Notes under the pieces: generated by a model
Database searches by the model: none
What the model was told of the DNA's origin: nothing
The model's input: the letters and a program-made list of their open reading frames with translations, nothing else
Shown here: positions 53,827-63,975 of the stretch, one piece after another
How positions within the stretch are numbered: position 1 is the stretch's first letter
How the letters are laid out: each line of letters begins with the position of its first letter
Assembly (NCBI RefSeq): GCF_000722635.1
Contig: NZ_JOKH01000008.1
Coordinates: forward strand, 32,063 to 96,062
DNA: 64,000 nucleotides
DNA from: Endozoicomonas numazuensis
GTDB taxonomy: Bacteria > Pseudomonadota > Gammaproteobacteria > Pseudomonadales > Endozoicomonadaceae
Direction: 5' to 3'
Made by a program: the position numbers and the translations under genes

Positions 53827-55233
53827 TCAACGTTTTTGTTCTGGGGAAATCTTTATAATCCCGGCATTACTCCCTTGCCAGAAAGTTTGTTTGAATCCCA
53901 TGTTGCCAGCCAATTGTTGGGTGTCATACATAAACCCGGAACCGATCTTTTCTTTCTTGACTGTTTCTCCTGATAGGAAGTCAATGACAGTGTAATAGTA
54001 CTGCTCGTCAATGCGTTCGAAGGTATAGATATAGTCATCAGATACTGACAGTTTTGGTACGGCAGAGGACTGTACTGGATTTGACCAAATCAGTTCACAC
54101 TGGTTTCCTTTTGACTTCTTGTTTCCAGAGACCACATCTACTCTGTACATCCCTTTACCCAGTGGTGCTGTTGCTGGTATTGCTGGAGGTAAGGTATCTT
54201 CTATTGGGAACGGGTAGCCATAACTGGAGGTAAGAATGACTGAATTGCCTACACCGATCGGTGAGTTTTCACTACCAAATACTTCATTTGATGGCAGTTC
54301 AACTTTACAAACTAAAGGTGATTTCTTGTTTTCTGTATTGAAAATCAACAGATTGTCGCCACTGTCAGCATTATCTGCAATAGTAAGATATTCGGTGCCT
54401 TTGATTGGGCCAAAGAAGGTTGGGCTGGAACCTGTGCCGTGAGATAACTTTCCAGGCTTTCTGTGCGAACCTGAATCGTATTTCTGGCGCCAGATTTCCT
54501 TTATCTTCTTTTTGTATTCGAGCAGATACACTGCGTTATTTGTAGCTACTGCCACTTTGCCATCACCGGAGTTTGCGAACGAGTTATTGACGGTCTCGCC
54601 ACGCTTTAACCTGTGTGTATCAACTTTATAAATCTCTGGATCGAAGCGACCAACAAGCCCCTGATCTGTCACAAACCAGATACTTCCATCAGCAGCCGGG
54701 TTGACTGCATTTATGGCTTCGCCTTTGGGAATATAGGGAGATAGATTAATACGGCGTTCGTTGGATAATGCCCAATTACCCTCTTCATCCTTAGTGTTAA
54801 GGATCAGTAGGGCAGAAGTGCCATCAGCAATCACAACTTGGTCAAGTTGGTTTATATAAGCATAGATGCCACCCATCACAGAGCCATCTCCGATAATGAG
54901 TCGATCAATAACGGTATGCTCATCTGGGTCGATAATGCTGACAACAGGAGAAAGTGTCGAGTAGTCTGTACAAATTGAGATGGGGAAGCCATCTCTAGTT
55001 AATACAACGGTTGCACAAACACCGTTTAGGTTGATTAACTCAGACTTAAAGTTTCCATTTCCTGTGCCTGGCAGATAAGTCGTATCCGATGCAGCAGAAT
55101 CACTGTGCATAGCGGCTGAACCATCAAGACCAATAGAAGGGTTTACAGGAGGGCGTGGTCCTGCTGCATATGCTTGGGTTGCAAGTAGGGTAGAGAGTGT
55201 CAGTGTATGCAGCAAATTTGGAGCAATCTTCAT
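53827..55233 (-). CDS. Secreted propeller-like protein, FNR-controlled
   Basis: A 468-residue exported protein of unknown function. A signal peptide (about 1-23, ending AYAA) precedes repeated beta-strand blades (VVSIIDPDEHTVIDRLIIGD, GSIWFVTDQGLVGRFDPE, YLTIADNADSGDNLLIFN, YYYTVIDFLSGETVKKEK) like a YncE- or PQQ-type propeller. No lipobox, catalytic motif or Trp-docking pattern stands out. An FNR box at class II distance to a TATATT -10 lies about 100 nt upstream. Confidence 0.75.
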   Translation of the reverse strand: MKIAPNLLHTLTLSTLLATQAYAAGPRPPVNPSIGLDGSAAMHSDSAASDTTYLPGTGNGNFKSELINLNGVCATVVLTRDGFPISICTDYSTLSPVVSIIDPDEHTVIDRLIIGDGSVMGGIYAYINQLDQVVIADGTSALLILNTKDEEGNWALSNERRINLSPYIPKGEAINAVNPAADGSIWFVTDQGLVGRFDPEIYKVDTHRLKRGETVNNSFANSGDGKVAVATNNAVYLLEYKKKIKEIWRQKYDSGSHRKPGKLSHGTGSSPTFFGPIKGTEYLTIADNADSGDNLLIFNTENKKSPLVCKVELPSNEVFGSENSPIGVGNSVILTSSYGYPFPIEDTLPPAIPATAPLGKGMYRVDVVSGNKKSKGNQCELIWSNPVQSSAVPKLSVSDDYIYTFERIDEQYYYTVIDFLSGETVKKEKIGSGFMYDTQQLAGNMGFKQTFWQGSNAGIIKISPEQKR

Positions 55234-55306: not shown

Positions 55307-55349
55307 AATATACCTATCTCGTTGGTGTTGAATAATTGATCTAAATCAA
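55307..55349 (-). promoter_or_regulatory. FNR-dependent promoter of the propeller gene
   Basis: A perfect FNR/ANR palindrome (55336-55349; TTGATTTAGATCAA on the minus strand) lies 23 bp upstream of a TATATT -10 (55307-55312). This is within 1 bp of class II FNR geometry (box centred near -41.5). Confidence 0.75.
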
Positions 55350-57707: not shown

Positions 57708-59006
57708 ATGTCTAATCAGGGTATTGAAGCTAAACGTTCCATTGATAAATATTCCAAATCAGAATGGACTGCCAAGGACACAGGTTGGATGTTCAGTCAC
57801 ATAGGTACAGGCATTGGTGCAGGTCTACTTTACTTGCCAATAGCAGCTGGCAGTGGCGGTATATGGCCTCTTTTCTTTATGATTCTGGTCAGTGGACCCA
57901 TGGTGTTTCTGACTCATAGGGGATTGACGCGATTTTGTTTGTCTTCACAAAAGCCTGAGAGTGATATCGGTAGCATTGTAAGAGAGCGCTTTGGCGAAAA
58001 AGTGGGCCACTGGTTGATGCTGGTGTGTTTTCTATCCATGTTTCCTGTTTTACTGCTCTACACGATTGGTATTTCAAACGTTACTGAAAGCTTCTTATTA
58101 CACCAGCTTGAATGGGAAGGTGAGCTCAACAGGCCGCTGCTGGTATTTATACTGGTTGTGGGTATGATTGCTCTATTCTGTGGTTCAGAGCAAAAGCTGT
58201 TAAAGCTAATCAGTAGTCTTGTTTTTCCGTTAACTGTGATCCTGCTCTGCATGGGGTTGTATCTGATACCGCAGTGGAGAATGGACTTTATTCAGCAGGA
58301 AGTCATGGCGATAGATGTCGTCAAAACCTTTCTTCTGACTCTGCCTGTACTAGTCTTTTCCTTCTATCATGCGCCAATTTGTTCGTCTTTTGCTCAATCC
58401 TATCGACGTCGAATTCCTGAGCTTCATCAATGCATTGCCAAGACAGATAAGATTCATTTTAAAAGCTCTATGATCTTGTTGATGATCACATTATTTTTTG
58501 TACTGTCATGTATCTTGGCTTTGACGCCAGAGCAAATAGAGCAAGCCAGGGTTCAAAATCTGCCAACCCTCTCAATCCTGGCTAACCAGCCTGGAAATCG
58601 TTTCTTTTCGAGCCTGGCTCCAATTATTGCTTTTGTAGCTATTTTGACTTCTTTCTTTGGATTCTTTCTGGGAACCATTGAGGTATTGAATGGCTTTATT
58701 GGAGTGGGGCTTGAAAAATTCAGGCCGGGACAGTTAACGACCCCTTCTTTCAGGCCCAGAAGGCTGAGTCTTTTTCTGGTCGCTTTTGGGTGTTGGATTG
58801 CCGGGGTGGGTAACTGGAGTGTTTTGATGATTCTGGATGCTATCGTAGCACCTATGATGGCGATCATCCTGTTCTTTATTCCTGTAATAGGACTCTATAA
58901 CTCAAATACTCTCAGACAATATAGAAATACCCGGAACGATCTCTTCGTCGTTGTTATGGGGGGGGTGGTCGTGGCAGGATTTCTGGTGTCGCAGGTATTA
59001 AAATAA
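57708..59006 (+). CDS. HAAAP/SdaC family amino-acid transporter
   Basis: A 432-residue inner-membrane protein with 11 hydrophobic segments. The N-terminal HIGTGIGAGLLYLPIAAGSG is the signature of the hydroxy/aromatic amino-acid permease family, nearest to serine carriers such as SdaC. FYHAPICSSFAQSYRRR in the middle is also typical. Substrate inferred as serine or threonine. It is divergent from the P450 gene and ends in a terminator that also works for the minus strand. Confidence 0.88.
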   Translation: MSNQGIEAKRSIDKYSKSEWTAKDTGWMFSHIGTGIGAGLLYLPIAAGSGGIWPLFFMILVSGPMVFLTHRGLTRFCLSSQKPESDIGSIVRERFGEKVGHWLMLVCFLSMFPVLLLYTIGISNVTESFLLHQLEWEGELNRPLLVFILVVGMIALFCGSEQKLLKLISSLVFPLTVILLCMGLYLIPQWRMDFIQQEVMAIDVVKTFLLTLPVLVFSFYHAPICSSFAQSYRRRIPELHQCIAKTDKIHFKSSMILLMITLFFVLSCILALTPEQIEQARVQNLPTLSILANQPGNRFFSSLAPIIAFVAILTSFFGFFLGTIEVLNGFIGVGLEKFRPGQLTTPSFRPRRLSLFLVAFGCWIAGVGNWSVLMILDAIVAPMMAIILFFIPVIGLYNSNTLRQYRNTRNDLFVVVMGGVVVAGFLVSQVLK

Positions 59007-59134
59007 AAAAACCGGGTCCCCTCAAACCCGGTTTTTATGCTGACTTAGACTCTGATTCTTCTATAGGCATCTCCCTGAATGTATTATTCGTTTTTTTATT
59101 ATTGCTCTAAACGACAGTGCTTTCTGAGCTCCTA
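59005..59134 (-). ncRNA. Candidate FNR-regulated small RNA, unit A
   Basis: Predicted transcript of about 130 nt from the FNR promoter at 59141-59182 to the hairpin at 59005-59036. The terminator stem is ACCGGGT/ACCCGGT, extended by A-T pairs, with loop TTGAGGGG and T6 on this strand (T5 on the other). An A/U-rich stretch in the middle could bind Hfq. No credible ORF. The hairpin is shared with the convergent transporter gene. Confidence 0.65.
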
Positions 59135-59140
59135 GAATCA

Positions 59141-59182
59141 AATATAGGTAATTATGCCTATTTGTTTTTTGATCTAAATCAA
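59141..59182 (-). promoter_or_regulatory. FNR class II promoter A
   Basis: FNR box at 59169-59182 (TTGATTTAGATCAA on this strand), a 22-bp gap, then -10 TATATT (59141-59146): exact class II spacing. ACCTACC lies upstream of the box, as in units B and C. Confidence 0.8.
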
Positions 59183-59233
59183 TAATTTGGTAGGTGGTAA
59201 TACTTATTTCGGCTTTTGGGTTTTTGACAGACG

Positions 59234-59378
59234 AAAAAAAACCGGGCCCCCTCAAACCCGGTTTTTTCTGCTGGCTAAGGCTCTGACTGTTAAACGTATA
59301 AGCTTTTCTCCTGCTGCAAAAATTAAATATAGCTGACTGAACTTTGGAGCAACTTCTTACTGTTGCTGCCTTGCTTGT
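59234..59378 (-). ncRNA. Candidate FNR-regulated small RNA, unit B
   Basis: Predicted transcript of about 145 nt ending in a hairpin at 59234-59267 with the same stem and loop as unit A and T8 on this strand (T6 on the other). The sequence before the terminator, TTAGCCAGCAG, recurs in units C and D as TAGCCAGC. Confidence 0.7.
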
Positions 59379-59384
59379 GACTCA

Positions 59385-59426
59385 ACTATAAGTAAAAGCA
59401 CTTATCTTGTTTTTGATCTGGATCAA
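59385..59426 (-). promoter_or_regulatory. FNR class II promoter B
   Basis: FNR box TTGATCCAGATCAA (59413-59426), a 22-bp gap, then -10 TATAGT (59385-59390). Confidence 0.8.
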
Positions 59427-59556
59427 TAAATGGTAGGTATTAACACTTATTCTTCTGTTTTAGATACAGGTCTCTGAAGAGCATGGATTGGTTAGCGTTG
59501 AACATTATTGGAAGAAAACAGTGATAAGAAAAAAGAGATTTGTAAACGAAAGGCAT

Positions 59557-59691
59557 AAAAAAACCAGGTCCCCTCAAACCTGGTTTTTTCATTGGCTGGC
59601 TACATCAAGTCTTATGATTTTTATACTTGGTTCCTTGTATTAATTTTTATTATGTCTTTGTTTTTATTCTACATTCGCCCTCGCTCCTGTG
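59557..59691 (-). ncRNA. Candidate FNR-regulated small RNA, unit C
   Basis: Predicted transcript of about 135 nt, ending in a hairpin (59557-59589) with ACCAGGT/ACCTGGT stem, the same TTGAGGGG loop and T7. Compared with units A and B both strands of the stem changed together (CCGGG to CCAGG), which preserves pairing. Confidence 0.7.
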
Positions 59692-59697
59692 GTTTCC

Positions 59698-59739
59698 ACT
59701 ATACGTAGGAACGCCTATTAAGGGATTGATCCAGATCAA
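59698..59739 (-). promoter_or_regulatory. FNR class II promoter C
   Basis: FNR box (59726-59739, TTGATCTGGATCAA), a 22-bp gap, then -10 TATAGT (59698-59703). Confidence 0.8.
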
Positions 59740-60040
59740 TATTTTTGTTTTTGGGTAGGTGTTTTTCGCAAAAAAGTTGGCTCGAACTTCGCATTCGTTC
59801 GTTGATGTTCGTTTGTTGTCTTAGGTGTTTCGAGTATCCAGAAAAGGAACCAAGCTGATCGCACTAGCGTGTTAAGAATAGATAAGAAGGACGTTAAGTG
59901 AAGTCGTCCATTACACAAGTGGGTTTATGTTTTTGCTGCAACAATCCTGGAAATTGCTCCTCGGCTCGGGCGTCCTGCTTCGCCCTAACTCCTACATCCT
60001 GTAGTCGTGCATTTCTAGGATACCGTATATCCCTATACAT

Positions 60041-60203
60041 AAAAAAAAACCGGGTTCCCTCAAACCCGGTTTCTATTGGCTGGCTATGTGACTGATCCCG
60101 CTTATTATTCTTTTATCCATGCTCGAAGCAGATTGAATGGTCTGGCGTGGCTAGTAACTCGCTGACTTATTGTTATTAACTCGTTGTTGCCAATCGCGCT
60201 CAC
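60041..60203 (-). ncRNA. Candidate FNR-regulated small RNA, unit D
   Basis: Predicted transcript of about 160 nt, ending in a hairpin (60042-60073) with CCGGG/CCCGG stem and T9 on this strand but only T3 on the other. This is the best evidence that the array reads leftwards. TAGCCAGCCAAT precedes the terminator as in unit C. Confidence 0.7.
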
Positions 60204-60209
60204 AACTTC

Positions 60210-60250
60210 ATTGTACGTACATCCACCTAAATAGCTTTGATCTGGATCAA
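60210..60250 (-). promoter_or_regulatory. FNR class II promoter D
   Basis: FNR box TTGATCCAGATCAA (60237-60250), a 21-bp gap, then -10 TACAAT (60210-60215). Confidence 0.78.
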
Positions 60251-60325
60251 TTTAATTCGGTATGTACCTATCTTTGCGTCAGTCATTCTGCCTATTAAGG
60301 AAGAATCGCACCTTCCCTGATAATC

Positions 60326-61723
60326 TTACAGGCCACGCGCCTGACACATCGTTTTGTATTCATCTTCATAGAAGAACTTCTCTTCACCAAATGCAGGCTT
60401 GAGATCGTCCAACCAGGTTGCTGCTTCATCGTATTGGGCAAAGAAGGGTTTGTAGCACCAGTCGGGATTACGACCCTGAAGGAAACGAAGTACGAACACC
60501 TTTTCTCCATTCACTTCGGCGACTCCGGTAATTTCGACCTTACCGGGTCCTGCGCTCATAGATGGGCCGCGTACCGTTCTTCCCAGTCCGGACATCTGAG
60601 TGATAGCTTCCTGATAAATGCTGTAGGCTCGAGCCAAAGGAATTTCAAAGTAGTGCTTTGCACCGGTGTCGCGTGCTACGAAAAAGTAGTAAGGAATGAT
60701 TCCCAGAGAAAGCTGGGTCTTCCAGTTTTTAACCCAGACAGATGCATCGTCGTTGATGTGTCGAGTCAGTGGTGCCTGTGCGCGAATGTTGGCGCCTGTT
60801 GCACGGATACGCTTAATGGCTTCTTTGCAGACATCGGTTTTGAGCTCTGCGTAGTGATCGAAATGAGCCATAAAAGCCAGGTGCTTGCCAGAGTCAGCAA
60901 TCTTTTTGAACAGCGCCATGAGTTCTTCAGCATCATCATCCTGGGTAAAGCGGTATGGCCAGAAGGTCAGTGTTTTAGAACCAATACGAATGTGACGAAT
61001 ATGATCAAATTCTGGTTCGAGCAGGGGCTCAAGATAAGCTTTTAGAATCTTGGTCTTCATCACCAGGGGGTCGCCACCCGTAAACAGCAAGTCGGTGATT
61101 TCTGTGTGGGCCTTCAGATAGGCATGCATGGTAGCTGCATCGGTAGAAGCCATTTTCAATTCACTGTCGCCAATGAACTGGGCCCAACGAAAGCAGAAGG
61201 TGCAATAGCTATGGCAGGTTTGTCCCTGGCTGGGGAAGTAGAGAGCTGTTTCGCGGTATTTGTGTTGCATACCTTCTACAGGCTCACCTTCCAGCATGGG
61301 AGAGTTCATGACTTGTTGGCCCGCTGGGTGAGGGTTCATGCCCAGCTGAATTTCCTTCGCTGCTTTTTTAATCGTGTCCCGGCTTTCTGCTGCTCTGTGC
61401 AGTTCTGCCATAAAGTTAAAGTCAGCCGCTTTCAGCATTTCTTTCTGTGGAAACATCAGCCTGAAGATCGGGTCCGCAGGAATGTTATTCCAGTCAATCA
61501 ACTCATTAATGACGTACTCGTTAACACGAAACGGCATGACACTGGCCACGACTTTGATGTCGAACTGCATAGCTTCGGGCAGTTGTCGGAACTGTTCAAT
61601 GCTATCGATATTTCTTTCAGTAAAAACTTTATAGGGACGATCAGAGTTGTCAGTAGAAGTGATCAGCGTTTCAGCAGGAGTCGAGTCAATCAAGGAGTAT
61701 CCTCTTAAATGGGCTTGAGCCAT
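60326..61723 (-). CDS. KamA family radical SAM aminomutase
   Basis: A 465-residue radical SAM enzyme. The iron-sulfur motif CHSYCTFCFRW (about residue 170) and DLLFTGGDPLVMKTKILKAY are those of lysine 2,3-aminomutase relatives, which also use PLP and move an amino group from C2 to C3. The exact substrate (lysine, glutamate or other) is not decided. It lacks a strong ribosome site. The [4Fe-4S] chemistry is oxygen-sensitive, which fits its location beside an FNR-controlled array. Confidence 0.88.
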   Translation of the reverse strand: MAQAHLRGYSLIDSTPAETLITSTDNSDRPYKVFTERNIDSIEQFRQLPEAMQFDIKVVASVMPFRVNEYVINELIDWNNIPADPIFRLMFPQKEMLKAADFNFMAELHRAAESRDTIKKAAKEIQLGMNPHPAGQQVMNSPMLEGEPVEGMQHKYRETALYFPSQGQTCHSYCTFCFRWAQFIGDSELKMASTDAATMHAYLKAHTEITDLLFTGGDPLVMKTKILKAYLEPLLEPEFDHIRHIRIGSKTLTFWPYRFTQDDDAEELMALFKKIADSGKHLAFMAHFDHYAELKTDVCKEAIKRIRATGANIRAQAPLTRHINDDASVWVKNWKTQLSLGIIPYYFFVARDTGAKHYFEIPLARAYSIYQEAITQMSGLGRTVRGPSMSAGPGKVEITGVAEVNGEKVFVLRFLQGRNPDWCYKPFFAQYDEAATWLDDLKPAFGEEKFFYEDEYKTMCQARGL

Positions 61724-62229: not shown

Positions 62230-62634
62230 TCAGGGCTGATCTTGGTTCTCGATATACTCCTTAATTACATCCAATGGTGCGCCCCCGCAGCTTCCGGCAA
62301 AATATGATCTCGACCATAAGACAGGCTTTCGATAAGCACCCGCAATATCACAAAACTCTTGCCTTAGTCTTCTGGACGAAACAGCTTTTAAACTGTTTAT
62401 CAGTTTGGAAATAGACGGGGTTTTGGGCGTAAACTCAACCAGCAAATGCACATGGTCTGCTTCACCGTTAAATTCAACCAGCTCAGAATCAAAGCTCCCG
62501 CAAATTTCAGAAAAAATATCTTTCAGTCTTGTTAAGTGCAAAGCTCCCAGAACTTTCTTTCTGTATTTTGTGACAAAAACAATGTGGCAATGCAGGCTGT
62601 AAGCACTGTGCCGACCTTTCTTTATTTCCTGCAT
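62230..62634 (-). CDS. tnpA: IS200/IS605 family transposase TnpA
   Basis: A 134-residue Y1 single-strand transposase. The HUH metal motif (ADHVHLLVEF, about residues 59-68) and the catalytic Tyr (VIKEYIENQ, Tyr127) are intact, so it looks active. The N-terminus HSAYSLHCHIVFVTKYRKKV is typical. It is divergent from tnpB with a 69-nt gap. Confidence 0.95.
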   Translation of the reverse strand: MQEIKKGRHSAYSLHCHIVFVTKYRKKVLGALHLTRLKDIFSEICGSFDSELVEFNGEADHVHLLVEFTPKTPSISKLINSLKAVSSRRLRQEFCDIAGAYRKPVLWSRSYFAGSCGGAPLDVIKEYIENQDQP

Positions 62635-62703
62635 ACTGATATTTTATAATCCGTATTATGGGCTATTATATATAGCATATAAGATATCACACTGATTGCA
62701 TAA

Positions 62704-63975
62704 ATGAAGATTATCAAGGCATATAAGTACAGACTGGACGTAACGCCAGAGCAGCATGAAAGGCTTATGCAGCTCTGCGGTACATGTCGTTTTGTCTGGA
62801 ATAAAGCCCTGAGCATCTGCAATGAAAAATGGAAGTCTGGCGAAAAAATTCCATCCTCTTACACCATGCACAAATGGCTTCCTACATGGAAAAAAGAAGA
62901 GGAAACCAGTTTTTTAGCCCAAGGTAACGCTGTAGCTTTGCAGCAAAAATTAAATGACCTTGGAGCTGCTTGGGGGAAGCATTTTGATGATCTTGCAAAG
63001 CTCAAAGCAGGAAAAATGAAAGAGGTTAAGTTTGAGAAGCCTTGCTTCAAACAGCGCAACAAAGACTCCCATAATTCCATTCGTATCATGCAGTTTTCAA
63101 AATACTGTAGAATAGAAAACCGCAGGGTGAAGCTCCCCAGTAAGTTAGGCTGGGTAAGATTCCGCAAATCCCAAGAAATTTGTGGGGAAATCAAAAACTG
63201 TACAATCACCCGTAAATCAGGACACTGGTTTATCAGTTTCCAGACTGAGCAAGAGCGGCTTGATCCGGTACACCCCTCTGAAAAGATTGTGGGTCTTGAT
63301 ATGGGGGTTAAGAAATTCGTAACCCTTTCGACTGGCGAGCAATATAAACCCTTAAACTCGTACAGGAAGCATGAGAAAAAGCTTGCCAGTGAGCAAAGGA
63401 AGCTTTCTCGAAAGGTGAAATTTTCTGAAAACTGGAAAAAGCAGAAACGTCGTATTAACAGGATTCACAGCAAGATAGCTAATTGCCGATCCGATTACCT
63501 CCATAGAGCCTCATACGAAATCAGCAAAAACCACGCAATAATCGTCATTGAGGATTTAAAGGTGTCGAATATGTCAAAATCAGCAAAAGGCAATGCTGAG
63601 AATCAGGGTAAAAACGTAAAGGCAAAATCGGGTCTTAATAAGTCTATTCTTGATCAAGGATGGTATGAGTTCAGACGACAGCTCGAATATAAGCAGGCTT
63701 GGCGAGGTGGTGAGGTTATCGCTGTAAACCCGGCATACACAAGTCGAACCTGCCCTGAAGAGTCCTGTCGTTACGAGTCAAAAGAAAACAGACCGAATCA
63801 AGAAACATTCAGGTGCGTTAAGTGTGGGTATGAAAATAACGCCGACATTGTTGGCGCACTGAATGTATTAAGTATTTGGGAGCTGGGTCACAGCTTGTCA
63901 GCCTGTGGAGAGGGTTCGTTGGAGTCCTCTGAGAAACAGGAACCACGGCGAAATCGTAAGAGAGTAGCCGCCTAG
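62704..63975 (+). CDS. tnpB: IS605-type RNA-guided nuclease TnpB
   Basis: A 423-residue ancestor-type nuclease of Cas12. The RuvC triad is complete: Asp199 in GLDMGVKKF, Glu283 in VIEDLKV and Asp381 in NNADIVGALN. The zinc ribbon has CPEESC and CVKCG. TnpB uses an omega RNA from the IS right end to cut the empty donor site. All expected domains are intact. The C-terminal tail is basic (RRNRKRVAA). Confidence 0.95.
   Translation: MKIIKAYKYRLDVTPEQHERLMQLCGTCRFVWNKALSICNEKWKSGEKIPSSYTMHKWLPTWKKEEETSFLAQGNAVALQQKLNDLGAAWGKHFDDLAKLKAGKMKEVKFEKPCFKQRNKDSHNSIRIMQFSKYCRIENRRVKLPSKLGWVRFRKSQEICGEIKNCTITRKSGHWFISFQTEQERLDPVHPSEKIVGLDMGVKKFVTLSTGEQYKPLNSYRKHEKKLASEQRKLSRKVKFSENWKKQKRRINRIHSKIANCRSDYLHRASYEISKNHAIIVIEDLKVSNMSKSAKGNAENQGKNVKAKSGLNKSILDQGWYEFRRQLEYKQAWRGGEVIAVNPAYTSRTCPEESCRYESKENRPNQETFRCVKCGYENNADIVGALNVLSIWELGHSLSACGEGSLESSEKQEPRRNRKRVAA

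Follow-up and report, generated by a model that had tools for sequence, protein, structure and literature searches.

The window analysed here, a stretch of 64,000 nucleotides (contig NZ_JOKH01000008.1, positions 32,063 to 96,062), belongs to the genome of Endozoicomonas numazuensis (G000; 6.34 Mb in 31 contigs). Its segment 59005–60250 carries four units on the minus strand (U1 to U4), each composed of a perfect TTGAT-N4-ATCAA box of the FNR type, a −10 sequence, a body of ~90–120 nt and a near-identical terminator hairpin. The initial annotation had described a tandem array of FNR-controlled small RNA (sRNA) genes without credible proteins, and these elements are indeed found in the sequence. 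All four boxes lie where it placed them, the gaps to the −10 (TATATT, TATAGT, TATAGT, TACAAT) are 22, 22, 22 and 21 bp, and the compensatory stem change attributed to one terminator is that of U3 (CCAGG/CCTGG). The T runs given as 6/8/7/9 on the minus strand count 7/8/7/9, so that only the first was wrong. The limits 59005–60250 leave out further elements that precede the boxes, as well as a fifth copy located elsewhere in the genome. The features of the locus are given below with their counterparts (copies a to d) in the related genome G006.

59005–59134, minus: U1, predicted sRNA of ~130 nt, start placed by inference 48 nt from the start of its box; terminator 59036–59007; counterpart G006 d
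59169–59182, minus: FNR box of U1, TTGATTTAGATCAA; TATATT 22 bp downstream, ~59146–59141
59191–59206, minus: second promoter element, TAAGTA/CACCTA pair upstream of the U1 box
59234–59378, minus: U2, predicted sRNA of ~145 nt; counterpart G006 c
59413–59426, minus: FNR box of U2, TTGATCCAGATCAA; TATAGT 22 bp downstream, ~59390–59385
59434–59449, minus: second promoter element, TAAGTG/TACCTA pair upstream of the U2 box
59557–59691, minus: U3, predicted sRNA of ~135 nt with the compensatory stem change; counterpart G006 b
59726–59739, minus: FNR box of U3, TTGATCTGGATCAA; TATAGT 22 bp downstream, ~59703–59698
59756–59761, minus: second promoter element in reversed form, CACCTA upstream of the U3 box
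60041–60202, minus: U4, predicted sRNA of ~162 nt, the sole array copy with the locus-I motif AAGCGGGA (see below); counterpart G006 a
60237–60250, minus: FNR box of U4, TTGATCCAGATCAA; TACAAT 21 bp downstream, ~60215–60210
60265–60270, minus: TAGGTA upstream of the U4 box; ATAGGTA is a perfect NarL-type half-site
57708–59006, plus: tdcC-like serine/threonine transporter gene (TIGR00814, 353 bits, below the model cut-off), convergent with the array and marker of locus II
60326–61723, minus: KamA-family radical SAM gene (TIGR00238, 137 bits, below cut-off), upstream of the array

Five perfect FNR boxes are present in the window against 0.15 expected from shuffled sequence, a number reached by none of 100 shuffles. 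The fifth (55336–55349, minus strand) precedes a 468-aa gene (53827–55233), has a TATATT ~23 bp on and looks like an ordinary FNR promoter. A generic scan of the array region detected three of the four terminators (shuffle mean 1.2), that of U2 being absent from its list. The corresponding scan for sigma-70 promoters found three against a shuffle mean of 3.0, which is not beyond chance and is expected because the FNR box stands in place of the −35 sequence. None of the open reading frames (ORFs) of 60–65 aa in the array region was judged a credible protein. A protein-coding role of the units was rejected: no small ORF is kept across the 35 copies compiled below, in which the longest ORF reaches 40 aa at most and is missing altogether in some. 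At 59005–59007 the U1 terminator runs into the stop codon of the tdcC-like gene, which is convergent with it, and may thus serve both transcripts; the arrangement recurs in G006, G002 and G004. The tdcC-like gene adjoins units in G006, G002, G004 and G009, and the KamA-family gene in G006 and G009, with a fragment in G001. The best named relative of the latter gene, at 78% identity, is from Parendozoicomonas callyspongiae. Further on, window positions 62230–63975 hold divergent ORFs of 134 and 423 aa that resemble by eye a tnpA/tnpB pair of the IS200/IS605 type.

A terminator search in 76 genomes brought up units of the same layout in the same genus and bacterial family, and a covariance model (R1) was built from 20 units of the array and its relatives. 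Such a search of related genomes had been proposed in the initial annotation; it yielded relatives across the bacterial family and the fifth copy in the window's own genome (C3:562816–562986, E 2e-20). R1 matches 27 of the 38 genomes of the family at E 0.001 or better and none of the other 11, and no match to it was found in the P. callyspongiae genome. The compiled set holds 35 copies with box and loop in 22 genomes: five each in G000 and G006, two each in G001, G002, G003, G004 and G009, and one each in 15 others. The script that picked them required an FNR-type box and the loop (or one degraded form already seen), so that the presence of boxes in 35/35 copies is a product of selection and that of the loop in 31/35 partly so, R1 itself containing both. 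Where a copy could also be read from another box further upstream, the two readings were merged, which reduced 40 readings by five to 35 copies. Several R1 matches were excluded from the count: the 3′ half in G016, full-length matches with other terminators in G027, G021 and G011, those in G037, a short match on contig 96 of G006, reverse-strand matches, and second matches in G025, G027, G029, G031, G035 and G036 (FNR-box RNAs with other terminators, as inspection of most of the latter showed). Plus-strand matches within the array were rejected as artefacts that score because the boxes are palindromic and the terminators are inverted repeats. Outside the family, where filters were stricter and genomes were drawn evenly, R1 matches in 19 of the 293 genomes of the order, at no more than 38 bits, were also set aside; 16 of them stop short of the model's promoter part. 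Rfam gave no match for the array at gathering score and nothing convincing at a permissive score, nor did it in eight related loci. By sequence, this is a real, conserved RNA family without match to a known one.

Other promoters of this kind were seen beyond the compiled set. Another genus has further candidate FNR-driven sRNAs with an FNR-type box, a 22-bp gap, a TACGTA-type −10, an A-rich stretch and a terminator-like hairpin with a different loop (L178:1300–1600, L179:1300–1600, L180:1300–1620, L181:1300–1550, L182:1400–1650, L183:1150–1450, L172:3340–3640), and FNR-driven sRNAs may be a general habit of the bacterial family. An element of G104, from another bacterial family (L184:1750–1930; R1 33.8 bits), has an FNR-like box TTGATTTGTATCAC, 22 bp to TATACT in the context TACGTATACT and a very A-rich stretch; it is possibly a distant relative or merely a similar promoter.

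A TANNNT sequence lies 21–22 bp past the box in 35/35 copies (29 at 22 bp and 6 at 21 bp), a gap that played no part in picking them, as this required box and loop only. By our own reckoning the 22-bp gap would put the box centre at ~−41.5, the class II position. Forty of the 46 perfect boxes of the window's genome were scanned by script in both directions and one more was read by eye; apart from the U2 box read backwards, only the four array units and the C3 copy combine TANNNT at 20–24 bp with a terminator-like hairpin no more than 400 bp away. A second element, TARGTR or its complement, occurs within 35 bp upstream of the FNR box in 31/35 copies, mostly starting 20–24 bp upstream (shuffles 4.2, maximum 11; 3/70 for 35 other boxes of the genome read both ways), and TAC[GCT]TA overlaps the −10 in 30/35 copies against 1/70 control readings. 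These contrasts are not formal tests, since the copies share ancestry and there is no need for most of the control boxes to be promoters. The element resembles half-sites of NarL, whose published heptamer, shared with NarP, is TACYYMT (PMC4886647). Perfect heptamers are found upstream in 16/35 copies against 3/70 controls, and NarL is our best candidate for a second regulator. A known parallel to these two proposed inputs is the E. coli nrf promoter, with its FNR site likewise at −41.5 and a NarL/NarP site at −74.5 (PMC5434802). A second FNR-like box was noted 58–113 bp upstream of the main locus-I box in G010, G005, G008, G002 and G020 (L169:4101, plus; L115:1395 and L118:1388, both in minus-strand count; L158:3524, plus; L170:4121, minus).

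At the other end of the units, the array terminators share the loop TTGAGGGG (TTGAGGGA in U4). TGAGGGG is present in 31/35 copies, two others have TGAGGGA, and at locus II of G003 and G004 the loop is degraded; the count of 31 is favoured by the picking of copies with the loop in mind and by its inclusion in R1. The stem beneath it varies. Seven of its eight pairs change on both sides among the 35 copies, a count that 7 of 500 shuffles reach. Paired cells amount to 90.2% against 75.9% in shuffles, none of 500 reaching the observed pairing, and to 64.8% when one side is shifted by one column. Three genomes of another genus have quite different stems beneath the same loop. Such replaced stems are stronger evidence than the loop count, because selection of the copies favoured the loop. 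The loop itself thus seems to be under selection, and since plain terminator loops need not be conserved, it probably binds something. Its use as an exact antisense seed was rejected: TCCCCTCAAA has 34 matches in five genomes (seven inside the sRNA genes themselves) against 35 for the reversed control.

The copies of the genus occupy two loci, the genes of which were named by eye from their translations. Locus I is bordered by an epimerase/ABC/queF cluster on one side and, in many genomes, by sugar-uptake genes on the other; 11/11 members of the genus have a copy there, as do members of two other genera. Locus II is flanked by uvrA/bactofilin/kamA-type genes and by tdcC/rplQ and holds one copy each in G001, G002, G003, G004 and G009 and four each in G000 and G006, while the other four genus members have a single R1 match each, at locus I. 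The two loci bear differently on the main rival explanation, in which the unit is an FNR-driven leader RNA, its terminator attenuating the gene that follows, and the array would consist of leaders multiplied by duplication. It arises from locus I, where the copies sit before a co-oriented epimerase gene. All 19 copies are followed by this gene (in G001 and G009 by a shorter ORF from that cluster), 17 of them at 25–298 bp, and at the C3 copy its open frame extends upstream to a GTG within the RNA. A different co-oriented gene, SDR-like by eye in two cases, lies at 72–85 bp in three genomes of another genus. At locus II (13 copies in 7 genomes), however, a gene on the opposite strand comes first in 6/7 genomes. 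The exception, G001, has a doubtful co-oriented ORF of 115 aa 142 bp on, and for the other copies co-oriented ORFs of 110 aa or more are found no closer than 732 bp. In the window's genome the array units have no co-oriented gene behind them. The locus-II units keep promoter and terminator, with the loop exact or with one change in 11/13, and no known leader was found in Rfam. The leader explanation thus suits locus II poorly, and we consider it improbable.

The order U4-U3-U2-U1 is identical in G000 and G006. Whole-unit identity is 54–60% between siblings of the window and 75–91% between counterparts of the two genomes, so that the array looks older than the split of G000 and G006 and does not appear to be undergoing homogenisation. 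In a tree of 33 of the 35 copies (those of G033 and G035, with long insertions, were left out), the partners are G006 d for U1 (support 99), c for U2 (99) and a for U4 (96). For U3 the tree gives a clade (98) that also contains b and the locus-II copies of G002, G003 and G004, one each; inside it b is nearer to these single copies than to U3 (90), so that position and identity are the grounds for treating U3 and b as counterparts. This clade joins U1 and U2 in a larger group (90), the attachment of U4 not being settled by the tree. The rpoA, rpsD and rplQ genes of G000 and G006 are 96.5% identical and mutually nearest among seven genomes (support 77). The single copy before the epimerase gene is probably ancestral; the second locus would then have arisen beside tdcC and reached four copies before the split from G006, the nearest relative. 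G006 has a 247-aa ORF on the opposite strand between the counterparts of U4 and U3 (L162:4211–4954), where G000 has ~300 bp without a credible gene.

Between G000 and G006 the predicted RNAs are 91.2% (U4), 94.8% (U3), 77.1% (U2) and 73.6% (U1) identical, and the spacers after U4, U3 and U2 45.6%, 50.0% and 70.0%. U3 and U4 are, on this comparison, clearly under selection. That the units, at least U1 and U2, are functionless relics of promoter-terminator cassettes, perhaps still transcribed, would agree with the U1 and U2 RNAs diverging nearly as fast as the adjoining spacer and with the degraded loops of G003 and G004, and is compatible with a function for U3 and U4. Boxes, −10 sequences, loop and terminator are nonetheless intact in U1–U4 and in the four G006 counterparts, and U3 and U4 are strongly kept; we regard such a relic state as unlikely.

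A body motif, AAGCGGGA or AAGCAGGA, is found in 17/19 locus-I copies, 62–68 nt from the end in 16. The motif is kept in U4 and its G006 counterpart, and the locus-II copies of G001 and G009 have it as AAGCAGGA; U1–U3, their counterparts and the locus-II copies of G002–G004 are without it, U2 having only GCAGGA, elsewhere. The array thus consists of one copy of the common kind and three whose promoter and 3′ end are of that kind too but whose bodies differ, and one signal may now drive several different guides. In G033 and G035 (L133, L171) the AAGCGGGA segment is duplicated within the locus-I RNA, whose predicted length is ~265 nt. The conserved elements (AAGCGGGA, GAGGGG) are purine-rich, unlike anti-Shine-Dalgarno seeds. 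This would suit RNAs that titrate a protein (CsrA/RsmA through GGA, or Hfq through A-rich stretches) instead of pairing with mRNAs, as would the existence of multicopy Rsm RNAs and a weak RsmY score at U1 (14.2 bits, E 1.2). A CsrA sponge was nevertheless rejected as the lead reading, GGA being barely above shuffles: over 40 box readings (five transcripts counted twice) there are 43 ANGGA against 33 expected and 109 GGA against 90. The bodies of U1–U4 carry one or two GGA each, some loops have none (GAGGGGGC in U2), and neither the many GGA motifs nor the Rfam match of Rsm/Csr RNAs was found for the units. Titration is accordingly given little credence here relative to pairing with mRNAs.

The best explanation of the units, and in our judgement a highly probable one, is that they are FNR-activated, perhaps nitrate-modulated, trans-acting sRNAs. 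Their architecture, their conservation, the matching order in G006 and the covariation of the stem are direct observations, and it is by comparison (the same layout in 35 copies from 22 genomes, with ordered counterparts in G006) that the siblings claimed in the initial annotation are best supported. FNR, Hfq and NarL are all encoded in the genome, with scores of 313.6, 97 and 298.5 bits that exceed the respective curated cut-offs; the FNR has three N-terminal cysteines in C-X2-C-X5-C spacing and the helix ETVSR. We infer activation by FNR and NarL, use of Hfq and action in trans, as follows. Each unit would be an independent gene for a small non-coding RNA of ~130–160 nt. FNR, active without oxygen, would bind at ~−41.5 and turn on a class II promoter. 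A further regulator, for which NarL or one of its relatives is the likeliest candidate, would probably modulate this promoter through half-sites at ~−64 and possibly over the −10. Transcription would end at the strong terminator with the loop TGAGGGG. Once made, the RNAs would work in trans, most likely by base pairing with the aid of Hfq, and lower the output of proteins dispensable without oxygen.

Several observations weigh against this explanation or parts of it. The copies are related, so that counts over them are not independent, and the G016 3′ half has the loop and no FNR box by the same pattern in 3.1 kb. NarL half-sites with one mismatch occur upstream in 30/35 copies and 38/70 controls and are thus unspecific, and TACGTAT at the −10 carries G where the NarL consensus wants C or T. 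The identities of the U1 (74%) and U2 (77%) RNAs barely exceed that of the 51-nt spacer separating the two (70%), in which an upstream promoter element is itself located. The folding of U4 does not stand out from that of shuffled sequence (z −0.43); the values for U1, U2 and U3, terminator included, are −1.6, −1.8 and −3.0, and folding energy is of little help as evidence. Hfq-type ARN runs exceed dinucleotide shuffles (p < 0.05) in only 4/40 readings and in none of the four array units (0.08–0.54). They were rejected as proof of Hfq binding, the case for which rests on the U-tailed terminator and the presence of hfq. Among the matches to the loop complement no target-like set was found, the 30 loci inspected having no shared 5′ region.

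FnrS, the single-copy sRNA of enterobacteria to which the array had been likened, is a parallel in function only. FnrS is a single gene there and four or five diverged copies are present here; homology was rejected, the RF01796 model matching 0/38 genomes of the family and only E. coli among 14 controls, and the permissive Rfam scan of the array gave no FnrS. The likeness lies in an FNR site, predicted from sequence for the array units, at the class II position of an orphan promoter. PhrS, compared by description only, carries a small ORF, whereas none is conserved over the 35 copies; no family of that name is among the Rfam matches of the array or the eight related loci. FnrS is FNR-driven and represses more than 30 mRNAs dispensable without oxygen (PMC8139620), and PhrS of Pseudomonas aeruginosa base-pairs with its target (PMC5703892). 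PaiI of the same species is an anaerobic sRNA under NarL (PMC5703892), like the second input proposed for the array, but the effect of ANR on it is thought to be indirect, through NarL (PMC8139620). DicF of enterohaemorrhagic E. coli, compared by description only, accumulates at low oxygen and has four copies; it is not presented as FNR-driven or tandem in the passage on it in PMC8139620. Sibling sRNAs, for which at least two homologous genes per genome are asked, are represented by sequence in G000 and G006 with five copies each (predicted transcripts). The known cases OmrA/OmrB, PrrF1/2, AbcR1/2, the csRNAs and Qrr (PMC4211561), as well as LhrC1–5, are likewise related RNAs but respond to other signals; some are tandem, and OmrA and OmrB share their ends and differ between them. 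FNR is absent from the text of that review (PMC4211561). The literature on FNR/ANR sRNAs, sibling sRNAs and Endozoicomonas, with subscription papers mostly outside, contained no such array by title or abstract start among the matches listed.

To our knowledge, FNR-driven sRNAs are known mostly as single genes. Here a single family can be followed as it grows from one copy, through a further locus, to an array of four genes whose counterparts are present in G006, and the family offers a ready test of how sibling sRNAs gain targets under one shared signal. The conserved terminator loop is in itself unusual. A bolder model, which we hold only tentatively, is that of a lineage-specific anaerobic sRNA family in which the loop TGAGGGG would be the conserved working part on a stem that is rebuilt, the promoter would integrate oxygen (through FNR) and nitrate (through NarL), and tandem duplication would have kept promoter and loop while swapping the body, so that one signal would serve several separate target sets. 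The nearest named relative lives in marine animals; if these bacteria do so too, low oxygen likely matters to them.

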